DNA of 64,000 nucleotides, from assembly GCA_034620365.1 (NCBI GenBank), contig JAQGEQ010000048.1:682001-746000 (forward strand), in the 5' to 3' direction. Positions 64 to 56,440 of this stretch are shown here, piece after piece (positions within the stretch are counted from its first letter, which is position 1; each line of letters opens with the position of its first letter). The translations under genes were made by a program, and so were the position numbers. Below the pieces are notes generated by a model. The model ran no database searches. It had not been told where the DNA came from and worked only from the letters and a program-made list of their open reading frames with translations. Source of the DNA: Pegea sp. RAD2-039. Taxonomy: Eukaryota; Chordata; Thaliacea; Salpida; Salpidae.

Positions 64-1548
64 TTACCAAAACTTTAAAGTAAGATTAGTAGTATGAAAA
101 ATCCAAATAACTCCAAGAACAGTTGTAGAATAAAACGATAAAATAATTAATGAGAAAAAAGTTGAGACGTGTAAAGTATTGAATAGGAAATTAAAGAAAC
201 CAGTAAAGATATTACTCAACAAGAACATAAAAAGTTGGTTTCTGTTCACTGCACACATTAAACATTTAATTTGAAAATAACTAACAGCTTTTAATCTCTG
301 AAACTTAGATGAAACAACCCATTGGTTTGGCATGCTATAAGAAGGTAAATTGCCTTGAAAGATTAAATATACAATAATGATATCAAACATGAGTAATAAT
401 GCTAATAAAAGTGAGCATTGAGAAGTTATCCAAACAACATAAGATAAGTTTGCCATTCTTCTAGATATGTTTTGAATGTAATGAATAGATAGCAACAGAA
501 AGATCAAACAAACAACTGAAAAGCAAAACATTTTTATACTAAGTTTGGTCCATTCGAAAATACTTTGTTTGTTTTTGAAAATATAAATTCCATGCAGAAT
601 ACCTATAAAATAAATACTCAAAAAGCCCACTGATGAAAAAACGCCTTCTTTGTTTTGCATTAGAAAAGTTTCTCTCCTGTCATTATCTAATATTAATGAA
701 GTGAAATCAAAATAGGGAGAAGTTAAAAAAAATTGATAAGAAGTTATTAAACCAAAAGTTACAAAAAAGAGATTCTTCACTTTTACAGTAAATATAATTA
801 GTTCTGCCATGACTTTAACAACTGATATAGTAAAGAAAAAATTCCAATGAAAACCATATTCTGATGTATGCTGTTGGTAACCGGTTGCTTTTATGGAAAA
901 ATATCGAATTAAACCTAAAATAGTTAAAGGAATTGTACCTTTAAGTTGTTTAAGAAATATATTTTTACTTTTGATTTCAGAAGATACCTTAGAAAAAGAG
1001 CTTATCAATCCATTAATAAATATAAATGTTCCAACACCCAAATCCATGAGACTACAGCCAAAAGTTTCTGTTTTAGCAAACCTTCGAGGGAAGACATTAA
1101 AATCAACAGCTAATATACAAATCATTGTCATCATGTGCATCACGAAAATAAAAGAAGTGATAAAGGGGATGTGAGAAGATGAAAGAACTAAATATTTAAT
1201 TTGTTTTGATTTATGTACAGCTTTATAACTTGAACTTGACTTTAAATTGTTTAGTTTTAAGAAGATGATTATGAAAGTGAAAAGTGCTATGAAACTTGCA
1301 AAATAAAAAATTGATTCAGAAAATAAAGTTATGCCAAATAAAAATGGCCCCACAAGAATAAATACATCATAAATAAATCTAAATATATGAAGTTTTATAA
1401 ATGGTAGATGTTCCCATATTATAGCTCTGAGCAACACCAGAATTGAAGGAAAACAAATGATTAAAGCAGATTCAGATAAAGTTGTTCCACCATGTCCAGT
1501 CACAAAAAGTTCACGTTCTATTTTTACTGAAGAATTAATAATCTCCAT
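64..1548 (-). CDS. PIGW: GPI inositol acyltransferase PIG-W (Gwt1 family), single exon
   Basis: A 494-residue intronless protein of the PIGW/Gwt1 family. The family acylates the inositol of glucosaminyl-phosphatidylinositol in the ER membrane, an early luminal step of GPI-anchor synthesis. Family-specific blocks are visible: AVDFNVFPRRFAKTE near residue 150, followed by a GVGTFIF stretch; EYGFHWNFFFT near 230; SRRMANLSYVVWI near 370; and NRNQLFMFLLSNIFTGFFN near the C-terminus. About a dozen hydrophobic segments run along the protein. The length matches the human protein (about 504 residues). The start at 1548 gives an N-terminus (NSS...FVTGHGGTT) that aligns with the FVSNLNGTT region of vertebrate PIGW. 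Open frames on the plus strand inside it are shadows. Confidence 0.95.
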   Translation of the reverse strand: MEIINSSVKIERELFVTGHGGTTLSESALIICFPSILVLLRAIIWEHLPFIKLHIFRFIYDVFILVGPFLFGITLFSESIFYFASFIALFTFIIIFLKLNNLKSSSSYKAVHKSKQIKYLVLSSSHIPFITSFIFVMHMMTMICILAVDFNVFPRRFAKTETFGCSLMDLGVGTFIFINGLISSFSKVSSEIKSKNIFLKQLKGTIPLTILGLIRYFSIKATGYQQHTSEYGFHWNFFFTISVVKVMAELIIFTVKVKNLFFVTFGLITSYQFFLTSPYFDFTSLILDNDRRETFLMQNKEGVFSSVGFLSIYFIGILHGIYIFKNKQSIFEWTKLSIKMFCFSVVCLIFLLLSIHYIQNISRRMANLSYVVWITSQCSLLLALLLMFDIIIVYLIFQGNLPSYSMPNQWVVSSKFQRLKAVSYFQIKCLMCAVNRNQLFMFLLSNIFTGFFNFLFNTLHVSTFFSLIILSFYSTTVLGVIWIFHTTNLTLKFW

Positions 1549-11523: not shown

Positions 11524-11588
11524 AATAAAACGTTTTATAATTTTTCAAAAAGTAAAAATTTCATTTGTAACAAACACAATAATTTATT
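11524..11588. terminator. Facing polyadenylation signals of two convergent genes
   Basis: AATAAA on the plus strand at 11524-11529 lies about 400 bases after the CD2BP2 stop. AATAAA on the minus strand (TTTATT at 11583-11588) lies about 75 bases after the stop of the cytokine-like gene. The two transcripts therefore end tail to tail within about 60 bases or overlap slightly. Confidence 0.5.
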
Positions 11589-11661: not shown

Positions 11662-13004
11662 TTATTCTAACATAGACTGTATGTGACCAGAAATCAAATC
11701 ACTGAAAATCACGCAGATCTTGTTTCTTTTGATTGGGTTCATTTTTAGATACTTTTTATAGTTGCAGCTAATCCTACGGCTAATCTCTTTAAATGTCTGC
11801 AAAGTAAAGATTTTTTAATAAATATGTTATTACCTGAATATTAAGCTTCAAACATAGAAATTAATTAAACCTACCAATTCTGAATTCATAAAAGCAGTTA
11901 ATAATCTTGTTACTTTCAATTTTAGGCTTTCAATACACTTTTTATTCAAGAGTTTTGGGTCACATATTTTCTGCTTATAAAATGTATATTAGCGTTGAAA
12001 GTCTTAAGTAAAAACAATAGCTTACTTTCGGAAGGTTAGTTTTGCTGTTTTGTTTTCTGTAGCAGGTTTTTCCTTTCTATATAATTGATAGAGGAAATTA
12101 ACTTTGAATATCATATTTATTTGTTTAATATTTTGTCAAAAGTCGTTTAAAACTTTTTAAAACTGAATATTTATCTATGTAATTATTTGTTTGTATTACA
12201 ACTTAAAAATTATCTTTTTTTCATCTAACAATTTTTCATCGATTCACAAAACTATAAAATGAATAAAAATTTGCATAAAATATCAAATTTAAAAGTGACA
12301 AACTGTCGCAACATAAACTACTAAACTATCAATTTTTAAACTAAACATAATTCCAGCTTACATTTATAAGTATTTTTAACTAAAATGCAATAATTAAATA
12401 TTTGATAAACTTTTTTATTTCATACTAAATTTAAGATTTTTTTTACTTTTGAAACTTTTTGTTTTGCTAACTCCAACCAGTGGTATAACCGATACAACTG
12501 AATAGATACGAGTACATTACTGTTTCGTGTTTCATTTTGTAAAGTTGACATTTGAACCTTATTCAGCCATATTTGATCAGTAGAGTCTTTACTAGTCTGA
12601 TAATGATAAAGAAGTTCTTTTAATTAAACCATATCTTTGAAATTATTTCAATTTATACCTAGCAAATAAAATTAACTTTTTTAAAGTTACTATAAACAAG
12701 TAATTTGATTCAAGCTATCAATATTAAAAATATCATTTTTCAAATTTTTCTTTATATTTTTTGTTAGAAGAAAATGTTTCACGGCTTTTGCTAGCATCTT
12801 CTGATTCAACACAATGGTTAAGTAAAAACAAAGTGATCTTACCTTGATATTATCATAGTTTCCACCTTGTTTTAAAACCCCACTTGTTCTAACATACATA
12901 TTTTCTAACTCTAGTATATTGTAGTTAAAATCTTCGCATTCTTTACTCAAAGCAATGACCAAGTAGCTACTTAGAAAAAGTGCTATATTTATAAATTGAA
13001 TCAT
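11662..13004 (-). CDS. Secreted four-exon protein, helical-cytokine-like (hypothetical)
   Basis: Four exons, minus strand: 12843-13004, 12447-12596, 11875-11970 and 11662-11796 (stop TAA). All three introns are phase 0 with good GT and AG ends; the model gives 180 residues. Exon 1 opens with a clear signal peptide (FINIALFLSSYLVIALS) and a cysteine at residue 23 just after it. Each exon then carries one probable amphipathic helix: ILELENMYVRTSGVLK; VSIQLYRLYHWLELAKQK; IESLKLKVTRLLTAFM; and ICVIFSDLISGHIQSMLE. There are five cysteines in the mature part (exon 1, two in exon 3, two in exon 4) and one N-glycosylation sequon (NET) in exon 2. A signal peptide, four helices, about 160 mature residues and four phase-0 exons together form the classic layout of short-chain helical cytokines such as IL-2, IL-4 or IL-21. 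I see no sequence motif that names a family, so the fold is inference. The open frames of exons 2-4 lie between correct splice sites, which makes the exon model itself fairly firm. Confidence 0.6.
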
Positions 13005-13084: not shown

Positions 13085-13092
13085 CTTATATA
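13085..13092 (-). promoter_or_regulatory. TATA box of the cytokine-like gene
   Basis: TATATAAG on the minus strand, about 80 bases before the ATG at 13004. It sits in the right place for a TATA-driven promoter with a short leader. An octamer ATTTGCAT lies at 13059-13066, between it and the ATG. In such AT-rich DNA a chance match is possible. Confidence 0.4.
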
Positions 13093-13828: not shown

Positions 13829-14324
13829 TCATTTCTATTAGTTTACAATATTTGTAAAATAAAATTTATATGTAAACGTATAAATAGTAAATAGGAAACA
13901 TTTGTATAAGCTTGAAGAAATTTAAAAAGAGCATTTGATGGTTTTTTAACCATCTATAAAATAATTTTATAAAAAATAGTTAATAAGAGAGGACATATCA
14001 AGTATTTTAAGTATCACAAAAGCTTCACAGTCTTTTTAAATCTGTAATAGATAATATAGGGCTTCACTACCTAAACAATTATTAGTTTATTATTTATATA
14101 CAAAATTAGTTTTGAATATTCACTTTATATGTCACAGTTTATCTCATTTATATTTTAATTAATTATGGTAAGGCATAAAATACTATTTTTCTGATGGTAT
14201 TTGTAAAAACACTTCGTTCTTTTAAGAATGTTACGGTTGACTTCAAACTCACTTGTCTGTGTTCATTGGAGCAATTCAATCTCCGCTACTTTTGCTGATA
14301 AAACTTCAAATGCAGCAAGTGAGT

Positions 14325-15415
14325 ATGGAGTTTAGGGCTGGCATTTTTATAATCTTTTATATATTTGTTTTCATAACTTATTCAGTTGCGACTCCCAGAT
14401 TTAAAGTTGAAACTGTATACATGCCAACAGAATGTGCCAGAAAAAGTGCTTACGGTGACCAAGTGTTTGTTAACTTTATTGGAAGAAAATTGGATTCAGG
14501 AGAAGAATTTGACAGAAGGTTTGATTCAAACATTAATAATTAGTAATGTATGAAAGATAAAATGTTTCAGCCATGATGATAAGCCTTATCGTTTTCAACT
14601 TGGTATAGGAGAGGTTATTGAAGGATTCGAAGAAGGAGTTCTTAACATGTGTCCTGGAGAAAAGCGACTTCTTACAGTGCCCCCAAATATGGCATATGGT
14701 CACAAAGGAGGCAGTAAGTTATTAACGATTGTTAAACAAATAGTAAATAAAATAAGGATTAAAAACTAATTAAGTGATTTTAATTATTTATTAAGCATTT
14801 TAGAATAATATTTGGATTTTTTTATTCATCTTATAACAATTTTTAGTTTTAAAATCTAAATAGTTTTCTCTTTAATAATTTGCTCCTCATAATTGAAAGT
14901 TCTTCATGGTTCAGTGATGAAGTGAATGCTCAAGTAATCTTCTAGCCTACTTGTAGCTTTCCCAAAGTTACTTCTTGAATGAAAATCTGATTTTTTAAAT
15001 AGATTTACCACAAATGCCAGGAGGTACTTTGATATTTGATGTAGAACTTGTCCATGCAGAAGAAGGTCCTAGGCACCCTAAAGTTTTCAAATCGATGGAT
15101 TTAGATGGAGATAAACATTTATCGTCATTTGAAGTAAGCTGAAATCAATAAATCAACAAAAATTTTCTGTTTTTTGCAATTTCTTTAAAAACTTTATTTA
15201 TACAATTTCATTACATTAGTTTTTTTTTAATTCTAAATTTTATTTTATAGTTAATACACTGGGTTCAAAGTGAAATAGATCAGGCGGGGGCTCAACGATT
15301 GTCCCCAGCTGATGAAAAACAGTTCATTGATGACGTCATGATAGGAGAGGATAAAGACAAAGATGGACAAATTTCATTCGTGGAGTTTTGTGGTAATAAG
15401 CATGATGAATTTTAA
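14325..15415 (+). CDS. FKBP14: FKBP14/FKBP7-like ER peptidyl-prolyl isomerase with EF-hands
   Basis: Four exons: 14325-14518, 14571-14713, 15003-15133, 15251-15415; 210 residues, against 211 in human FKBP14. The protein catalyses cis-trans isomerisation of prolyl bonds in the ER lumen, with procollagen a known client. A signal peptide (GIFIIFYIFVFITYSVA) precedes the FKBP domain, which shows DQVFVNFIGRKLDSGEEFD, the active-site run GEVIEGFEEGVLNMCPGEKR and PPNMAYGHKGG. Two EF-hand loops follow: DLDGDKHLSSFE, split by an intron, and DKDKDGQISFVE. The chain ends in HDEF instead of the usual HDEL retrieval signal. Intron 1 is only 52 bases. I chose the ATG at 14325 because it begins the signal peptide directly; an in-frame ATG at 14253 would add 24 residues. 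FKBP7 is the alternative orthologue. Confidence 0.92.
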
Positions 15416-20900: not shown

Positions 20901-21645
20901 ACATGGTATGAACTCTTTGGTGAAGAAACCTTTTTATAAAATATTCACAACCTAGCTTTTACAGAATTAAAAAATGCTTTTATCTATTGCCTCTTGAAAC
21001 CCTTGTACCCGATTTGAGTTCTTAAAACAACTCTTTTTCAAAAATTACTAACAAAAAGAAGCATATGTGGTGTAAGTTTTGATTAAACAGCTTAATTTAA
21101 GCAAAAAAGTATTTGATAAATAAAAAAATAAAGAATAATCGATAAAATTATGTTAAACTTACAGTGGTTATACCAAGACGAACCCTAACCTTGCTACGAA
21201 AAGCACGAAAAGTAAGTGGATACCTTACAGAAAAGTATCTATCCAATCCAATGGCACATATGTTCCAAATTGAAGCAGTACAAAGCAAAATATCAATGGA
21301 AAGGTAGATACGGCAGTAAAACTCGCCAAAGGGCCAGTGGTTCAACAGCTCATTTGTAAGTGAGAAAGGAACAACTAAAACTACAAGACTAGCATCAGCT
21401 ACAGCCATGGATAAGAGATAAAGATTTTGTTGGTGTCGCTTAATGATATCATCTTTACAAATAACTGCTATGACTGAGCAGTTGCCAATCAGGGCAACAA
21501 GACAAAATACTACTGTCAGTAAGGACAGCAAAATTCTCTCAACTATTGTGTAGTTAATAGTAGATGAAACATACGCAGAATTAGTACTATTTTGCGCAAC
21601 AAGATAACCCAAGTTCAAACAATGTTGTCTCGTATTTTCTTCCAT
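17992..21645 (-). CDS. Aminergic class A GPCR (adrenergic/serotonin/dopamine type)
   Basis: Eight exons, minus strand: 21163-21645, 20425-20522, 20235-20360, 19946-20058, 19694-19782, 19182-19366, 18998-19115, 17992-18162; 460 residues. Exon 1 holds TM1 (GNCSVIAVI), TM2 (SMAVADASL), and TM3 with the aminergic aspartate (YLSIDILL) and DRY (GLDRYFSVRYPL). Exon 2 has TM4 and the loop cysteine (MKC) that pairs with the TM3 cysteine (EFYC). Exon 3 has TM5 (MLSFYIPSTIMCPVYVNIY). Exons 4-6 encode a long, charged third intracellular loop of about 130 residues. Exon 7 has TM6 (CFMISWTPFF). Exon 8 has TM7 with NPILY and a short tail (LREAFKRLYRF). The TM3 aspartate and long loop 3 point to a biogenic-amine receptor coupled to Gi or Gs. 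The ligand cannot be named. The lone TM5 serine pair (SSMLSF) would suit a catecholamine, serotonin or octopamine. Two glycosylation sequons (NST, NYT) lie in the N-terminus. Confidence 0.9.
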
Positions 21646-55948: not shown

Positions 55949-56440
55949 ATGATGAATAATTATCTCTTTTGTTTACTGATTATTTTCATTTTTGTTGTTG
56001 CAAATGTGAGTTCTTATCCTTGGCATGCATCTTGCAAGGTGATCTATCAGTTTAATGACATTAATTGTCAATCAGTTCATTCATCACTTGTCAAACAATT
56101 TGGATTATGGAATAACACTAATTGTGGTTCTGATAAAAATATTCATCAAAGATGCCGTTATGATCTTAAATCCCAAAGTAGCAATTTAATTACTGCTACT
56201 CATACAACACCACTTAAGCTTTATGTTGATGATATGATGTTTAAGTTTTCTGATGCTGGTGATAAATGTATTATAAAAGCATTTTCAACTTCTACAGTTT
56301 GGTATGCAGTTCTTGATTATGGCACAAATTATTGCAATATTCATAATATTGTATTTGGAACTGGATTGACTAATTTTACTGAGTCAACTTCTAATAGCGT
56401 CTGTACTCAATATTCAACTGCTGATTGCAACCGTTATTAA
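55949..56440 (+). CDS. Secreted eight-cysteine protein, unnamed family
   Basis: An intronless 163-residue protein. A signal peptide (LFCLLIIFIFVVANVSS) is followed by YPWHASCKVIYQF. The mature part has eight cysteines, enough for four disulfides, two Asn-x-Thr sites (NNT near residue 56, NFT near 143) and a conserved-looking core WYAVLDYGTNYCNIHN. There is no transmembrane helix and no GPI signal. I have a vague memory of unnamed secreted proteins with a WYAVLDYGTNYCN-like motif in aquatic invertebrates, but give no function. The ATG at 55949 is followed by a second ATG, with no upstream in-frame start. Polyadenylation signal AATAAA lies at 56599-56604. Codon use is typical of the window. Confidence 0.8.
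   Translation: MMNNYLFCLLIIFIFVVANVSSYPWHASCKVIYQFNDINCQSVHSSLVKQFGLWNNTNCGSDKNIHQRCRYDLKSQSSNLITATHTTPLKLYVDDMMFKFSDAGDKCIIKAFSTSTVWYAVLDYGTNYCNIHNIVFGTGLTNFTESTSNSVCTQYSTADCNRY

Follow-up and report, generated by a model that had tools for sequence, protein, structure and literature searches.

Introduction

The genes of IL-2 and of IL-4/13 are composed of four exons separated by three phase-0 introns according to the available parts of two reports (PMC6070626; PMC4905449), in agreement with an earlier note on the DNA analyzed here, which had taken this arrangement as typical of vertebrate short-chain cytokines. In the short-chain layout set out in the available part of PMC6070626, exon 1 carries the leader and helix A, exon 2 the AB loop, exon 3 helices B and C, and exon 4 the CD loop and helix D, and the exon and helix layout of human IL-4 is described likewise in the available part of PMC4905449. 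The AB-loop exon 2 of the salmonid IL2 genes is 36–48 bp in length (PMC6070626, same part). With respect to invertebrates, Domeless is presented as a classical receptor in the accessible part of PMC9251315, a putative helical cytokine of Drosophila is attributed to Malagoli et al. 2007 (as cited in the accessible part of PMC2248247), and CRLF3 was still without an identified endogenous ligand, whatever the organism, in 2021 (PMC8063046).

The present study concerns a spliced gene in a stretch of DNA of 64,000 nucleotides, referred to as the window, and its single paralogue found elsewhere in the same genome. Many invertebrates are known to possess class I receptors, JAK, and STAT, but few of the corresponding ligands have, to our knowledge, been described. 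A two-gene family with a gene structure and conserved residues, in a genome that has a JAK and a STAT, represents a concrete and cheap candidate for such a ligand. Confirmation of its fold would support the view that helical cytokines had a gene plan of four exons and phase-0 introns before vertebrates arose.

Results and Discussion

Gene structure of copy A

The copy of the gene in the window (copy A) lies on the minus strand, which had been absent from the earlier note, and spans 13004..11662. The four exons, the three phase-0 GT-AG introns, and the product of 180 residues described in that note were reproduced, with the following parts in window coordinates.

13085..13090, minus strand: TATA-like hexamer, start at 13090, 86 bp 5' of the ATG; weak evidence
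12843..13004, minus strand: exon 1, 162 bp; hydrophobic leader at about residues 1–22, Cys23, phase-0 end
12597..12842, minus strand: intron 1, 246 bp, GT..AG, phase 0; 264 bp in the paralogue
12447..12596, minus strand: exon 2, 150 bp, 50 codons; conserved QIWLN and QLYRLYxWLxLA
11971..12446, minus strand: intron 2, 476 bp, GT..AG, phase 0; 141 bp in the paralogue
11875..11970, minus strand: exon 3, 96 bp, 32 codons; CxPxxLNxxC, then an amphipathic stretch
11797..11874, minus strand: intron 3, 78 bp, GT..AG, phase 0; 45 bp in the paralogue
11662..11796, minus strand: exon 4, 135 bp, 44 codons and stop; conserved C-terminal ICxIFxDxISGHIxSML
11583..11588, minus strand: AATAAA, start at 11588, 74 bp past the stop; weak evidence

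The TATA box that had been placed about 80 bases upstream and the AATAAA shortly past the stop were thus both located, although the two words are weak evidence because the local DNA is approximately 73–76% A+T (mean GC of the window, approximately 27%). The product contains five cysteines, at residues 23, 107, 116, 147, and 164, and the one glycosylation site noticed earlier corresponds to the single N-glycosylation sequon, N75-E-T.

Paralogue and chance test

For practical purposes, it is certain that copy A is a genuine protein-coding gene and one of a dispersed pair. What settles its reality is a second copy, built from the same parts, at another place in the genome, which was searched with the spliced protein over 105.7 Mb in 387 contigs. 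The paralogue (copy B) was found on another contig, on the minus strand at C293:661957-660965, and has three stretches that match copy A (E 3.7e-11, 4.5e-8, and 0.0068) and between them cover every exon. Its product is also of 180 residues, and its exons are as follows.

C293:661957-661793, minus strand: exon 1 of copy B, 165 bp
C293:661528-661385, minus strand: exon 2 of copy B, 144 bp
C293:661243-661148, minus strand: exon 3 of copy B, 96 bp
C293:661102-660965, minus strand: exon 4 of copy B, 138 bp

The introns of copy B (264, 141, and 45 bp) are of the GT...AG type, all in phase 0 and in places matching those of copy A, and the splice choice for copy A is fixed because the paralogue keeps every exon and phase. 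The gene model might otherwise have been regarded as a chance artefact of AT-rich DNA, in which GT and AG dinucleotides and AATAAA words are abundant, but this explanation, whose probability we consider negligible, is refuted by the paralogue, whose exons and phases agree with those of copy A, and by its three matches. It is also at odds with a chance test under permissive splice rules, in which a four-exon, all-phase-0 model of at least 180 codons occurred in none of 60 first-order Markov sequences (median best, 0) for the same 1.7 kb. In the real 1.7-kb region, such a model was possible from one start codon; its longest variant, of 207 codons, differs from the 180-residue splice choice.

When the genome was queried with copy A and with copy B, no third family member appeared at E up to 10 among the best 8 and 4 candidates scored, respectively. 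C125:179159 (E 0.35) and C35:94531 (E 1.58) were considered as paralogues and dropped, being in the frames of other genes, which we take by eye to be those of an MBT-repeat protein and a kinase. A blastn comparison of 21 kb around copy A with 9.9 kb around copy B gave short matches only (15–53 bases; best E, 0.004), and the two copies are therefore an old dispersed pair.

Secretion and divergence of the two copies

The signal peptide proposed in the earlier note was reproduced as a predicted hydrophobic leader in both copies, in which the 9-residue hydropathy maximum lies at the N-terminus with a value of 2.2 in copy A (2.22) and 2.1 in copy B. By the same hydropathy analysis, no second membrane segment of transmembrane strength was found in either copy (best 19-residue means, 0.87 and 1.35). 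On the hydropathy of both copies, the product of copy A is very likely secreted, with a predicted mature protein of about 158 residues. As the leader was judged by hydropathy only, the N-terminal stretch could in principle be a signal anchor, making the product a small type II membrane protein and not a soluble ligand. We consider this to be very improbable, since the hydrophobic segment occupies the very N-terminus and is followed in both copies by a conserved Cys at residue 23, and since only 2 of the first 20 alignment columns are identical between the copies, as expected of a cleaved leader.

Over the whole alignment, 74 of 178 residues are identical between copies A and B, and all five cysteines are aligned. 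The nucleotide differences by codon position 1, 2, and 3 amount to 78, 56, and 94, and dN and dS were estimated as 0.49 and 2.0 by NG86 and as 0.53 and 2.97 by maximum likelihood, the ratio being rough because dS is near saturation. Purifying selection on the pair is strongly supported. The glycosylation sequons are at different places in the two copies, and the net charge is +11 in copy A vs −2 in copy B, indicating that the copies have diverged.

A secreted and helical protein of which one copy is basic (+11) and the other is not (−2) could also be a reproductive or mating protein acting on eggs, sperm, or mate recognition, in kind comparable to abalone lysin, which is a secreted helical protein. 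The whole-gene dN/dS well below 1 argues against this role, although selection at individual sites would escape a comparison of one pair, and we regard it as a distinctly improbable explanation.

Searches for relatives

With an E limit of 10, neither copy matched a Pfam cytokine model, and no PDB chain was matched by the two-sequence profile. Known divergent members of the short-chain class I family can also fail similarity searches. The sole PDB match of the single sequence, a kinesin-5 at E 1.4, was taken as chance. The Pfam matches to Phage_int_SAM_5 (E 0.0029), SIR3_C (E 0.019), and DUF6658 (E 0.073) were rejected because they were below the curated cut-offs and each was present in only one of the two paralogues. 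Among viral contigs, 156 stretches fitted one of two short peptide patterns, and among prokaryotic genomes, 53 stretches fitted the peptide patterns; none in either set was confirmed as a relative. No rotifer helical cytokine was found described in the available parts of the literature on rotifer JAK/STAT, domeless, and invertebrate or lophotrochozoan helical cytokines; in those of PMC9251315 and PMC8878817, rotifers appear only as fish feed, or Domeless and JAK appear only in the reference list.

These searches bear on the possibility that the secreted protein is a defence or venom-like effector and does not signal to cells of the animal itself. Its being a small, secreted, cysteine-bearing orphan with two copies so divergent in net charge would be in line with such a function. 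The absence of any Pfam match over the cut-off and of a confirmed relative in viral or prokaryotic contigs speaks against it, and we consider an effector function to be improbable.

Predicted helices

Structure prediction by AlphaFold2 covered exons 2 and 4, each folded singly and without an alignment. Exon 2 was predicted as a single continuous helix over residues 2–49 of 50, with a mean pLDDT of 93.8 for the best model (85.1–93.8 for the five models), and exon 4 as two helices, at 2–17 and 21–43, with a mean pLDDT of 92.8 for the best model (64.8–92.8 for the five models). Since alignment-free folds may lengthen helices, these predictions support a helical nature but not exact boundaries. 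A crude Chou-Fasman-type scan predicted strand, not helix, in several places.

The hydrophobic moment at the helical angle, evaluated on the two-sequence alignment, was significant at p 0.046 for exon 3 and at p 0.007 for the first half of exon 4, with p values uncorrected for multiple tests, so that two of the six segments carried a significant amphipathic signal. On the same alignment, it was not significant for exon 1 (p 0.82), for exon 2 (halves, p 0.78 and 0.22; whole exon, p 0.24), or for the last helix of exon 4 (p 0.20). The conserved and the hydrophobic faces of the first exon-4 helix are 122 degrees apart. When the copies were shuffled separately, the observed moment was reached in 152 (copy A) and 3 (copy B) of 1000 shuffles for exon 3, in 49 and 25 for exon 4, in 337 and 303 for exon 1, and in 417 and 133 for exon 2.

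The earlier note had assigned one amphipathic helix to each exon. The helix predictions and moments being mixed, this assignment is only partly supported: it probably holds for exon 3 and, with respect to amphipathicity, for the first half of exon 4, but exon 4 is predicted to form two helices, and exons 1 and 2 are without a significant signal. The helix layout is probably one in which exon 1 is unproven, exon 2 forms one long or two shorter helices, exon 3 one, and exon 4 two. Taken together, the models suggest that the protein is likely to be mainly alpha-helical.

Comparison with described helical proteins

Like the IL-2 and IL-4/13 genes, copy A encodes a predicted secreted protein of about 160 mature residues in four coding exons separated by three phase-0 introns, with the leader in exon 1, and exon 4 could, in outline, likewise hold the CD connection and the last helix. 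It is unlike IL-2 and IL-4 in that exon 2 is 150 bp in length and predicted to be helical, instead of being a short AB-loop exon, and in that an intron parts the exon-2 helix from the exon-3 segment, whereas helices B and C are in one exon in those genes. It is also unlike IL-2 and IL-4/13 in that no sequence similarity to them was found for copy A or B. When the gene is set against the short-chain class I family as a whole, the N-terminal leader with no other membrane segment, the four exons with three phase-0 introns, and the JAK and STAT in the genome agree, whereas the exon layout (exons 2 and 4 folded singly) and the sequence or profile similarity do not. Because the latter two features failed, the gene is not filed as a member of that family, although it may work like a short-chain class I cytokine despite them.

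The class II cytokines, of the IL-10 and interferon type, have a layout of four core helices and two crossover helices, and exons 2 and 4, if each held two helical stretches, would suit such a six-segment layout. Class II cytokine genes, however, usually have five exons, vs four in copy A, and neither copy showed Pfam similarity to class II cytokines at E up to 10. Unpaired of Drosophila and other proposed helical cytokines of invertebrates are likewise divergent secreted ligands in animals that have a Domeless-type receptor, JAK, and STAT, a comparison made with copy A by description and Pfam scan only. Any link between copy A or B and the missing endogenous ligand of CRLF3 would be speculation.

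As for helical proteins without a signalling role, apolipophorin III and abalone lysin are small and secreted with several helices, as copies A and B are predicted to be. A close rival to a ligand is a secreted helical protein, specific to the lineage, whose job is not signalling but, for example, the transport of lipids or small molecules in the body fluid or the formation of part of a gland secretion or coat, and we regard it as quite possible. The helices and disulfides may be just a stable scaffold, the predicted helices of exons 2 and 4 with a short linker also suit a helical carrier, and no cytokine family was matched. A carrier of the apolipophorin III type has five amphipathic helices and no disulfides, and carriers of this kind are mostly without cysteines, whereas copies A and B have five conserved cysteines, a significant amphipathic signal in two of six segments, and no Pfam match over the cut-off. 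In addition, the strongly conserved segments contain polar residues (QLYRLYxWLxLA and DxISGHIxSML), which points to a binding surface more than to an amphipathic carrier of a general kind.

JAK and STAT in the genome and the candidate ligand

A JAK gene was found on C46 at approximately 407–410 kb as one open frame, with FERM_F2 over the cut-off and two kinase-domain stretches; FERM_F1 (E 1.4e-4) and SH2_1 (E 2.3e-5) were both below their cut-offs. A STAT was found on C18 at approximately 578–580 kb, with the DNA-binding domain in one piece and the linker in another, both over the cut-off, and no domain match in the third of the three pieces scanned. Since JAK needs receptors and receptors need ligands, some ligand of the cytokine kind is expected in this genome.

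In the search for a receptor, EpoR_lig-bind had no match in this genome and had matches in 2 of 14 control genomes, none over the cut-off, and IL6Ra-bind had no match in this genome or the controls. The WSxWS DNA pattern was unspecific, with 3788 matches vs 2347 for the reversed pattern, and the fn3 search, in which 150 of 438 candidates were scored, gave mostly giant arrays and singled out no receptor. These results are no proof that a receptor is missing. Nothing was found that ties copy A to the JAK of this genome, and the lack of any found evidence tying the gene to a receptor also favors a non-signalling job. Of the helical-cytokine reading in the earlier note, the splicing, the very likely secretion, the four phase-0 exons, and the predicted helicity of exons 2 and 4 were upheld, in a genome with JAK and STAT, whereas no cytokine similarity, an exon layout unlike that of IL-2 and IL-4, no amphipathic signal in exon 1, and no singled-out receptor were obtained.

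On balance, the best single reading, which we favor tentatively from these models, is that copies A and B form an orphan family of two genes for secreted helical proteins with cysteines, which would act as cytokine-like ligands. The protein would serve outside the cell as a helical ligand comparable to cytokines or growth factors, and its helix A would come from exon 1, a helical AB crossover and helix B from exon 2, a short turn (CxPxxLNxxC) followed by helix C from exon 3, and a helical CD crossover and helix D from exon 4. The four-helix core would bridge receptor chains, and the signal would run through the JAK and STAT of the genome. The linkers would be long between A and B, short between B and C (residues approximately 105–111), and long between C and D (residues approximately 135–159), the long ones being helical themselves. 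Provided that helix B lies in the second half of exon 2 and helix C in exon 3, this long-short-long order would be the loop pattern needed for an up-up-down-down bundle. Disulfides are predicted from the cysteines, although their odd number, five, is a point against a cytokine-like ligand, as are the differing sites of the glycosylation sequons in the two copies, the angle between the conserved and hydrophobic faces in exon 4, and the strands given by the crude scan. It is doubtful that copies A and B are, more specifically, the founding pair of a helical cytokine family of protostomes, probably rotifers, that is, endogenous ligands of the animal's JAK/STAT receptor that would have kept the four-exon, all-phase-0 plan with the similarity gone and the second intron between helices B and C. 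True homology to the helical cytokines is likewise rather unlikely.

Other observations in the genome and the window

The JAK frame (C46:407000-410197, minus strand) is free of stops over 1144 codons in all, 1066 of them within the 3198-bp stretch, and takes in the FERM, SH2-like, and kinase stretches; almost the entire protein can be encoded without an intron. The fn3 arrays at C1:737623-836319 contain open frames of up to 6547 codons without a stop, with some blocks recurring approximately 4.2 kb apart, and are perhaps titin- or twitchin-like.

Four other genes or gene pieces were observed in the window.

14241-14769, plus strand: FKBP-type isomerase adjoining copy A in divergent orientation, with FKBP_C on the second of two pieces
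21148-21645, minus strand: piece of a rhodopsin-family GPCR (7tm_1, E 6.1e-27)
55949-56440, plus strand: single-exon, secreted-looking protein of 163 residues with several cysteines
64-1548, minus strand: intronless gene for a multi-pass membrane protein of 494 residues

The 163-residue protein had neither a Pfam match nor a second copy in the genome, both at E up to 0.001. The 494-residue protein is, by eye, presumably like the GPI acyltransferase PIG-W.
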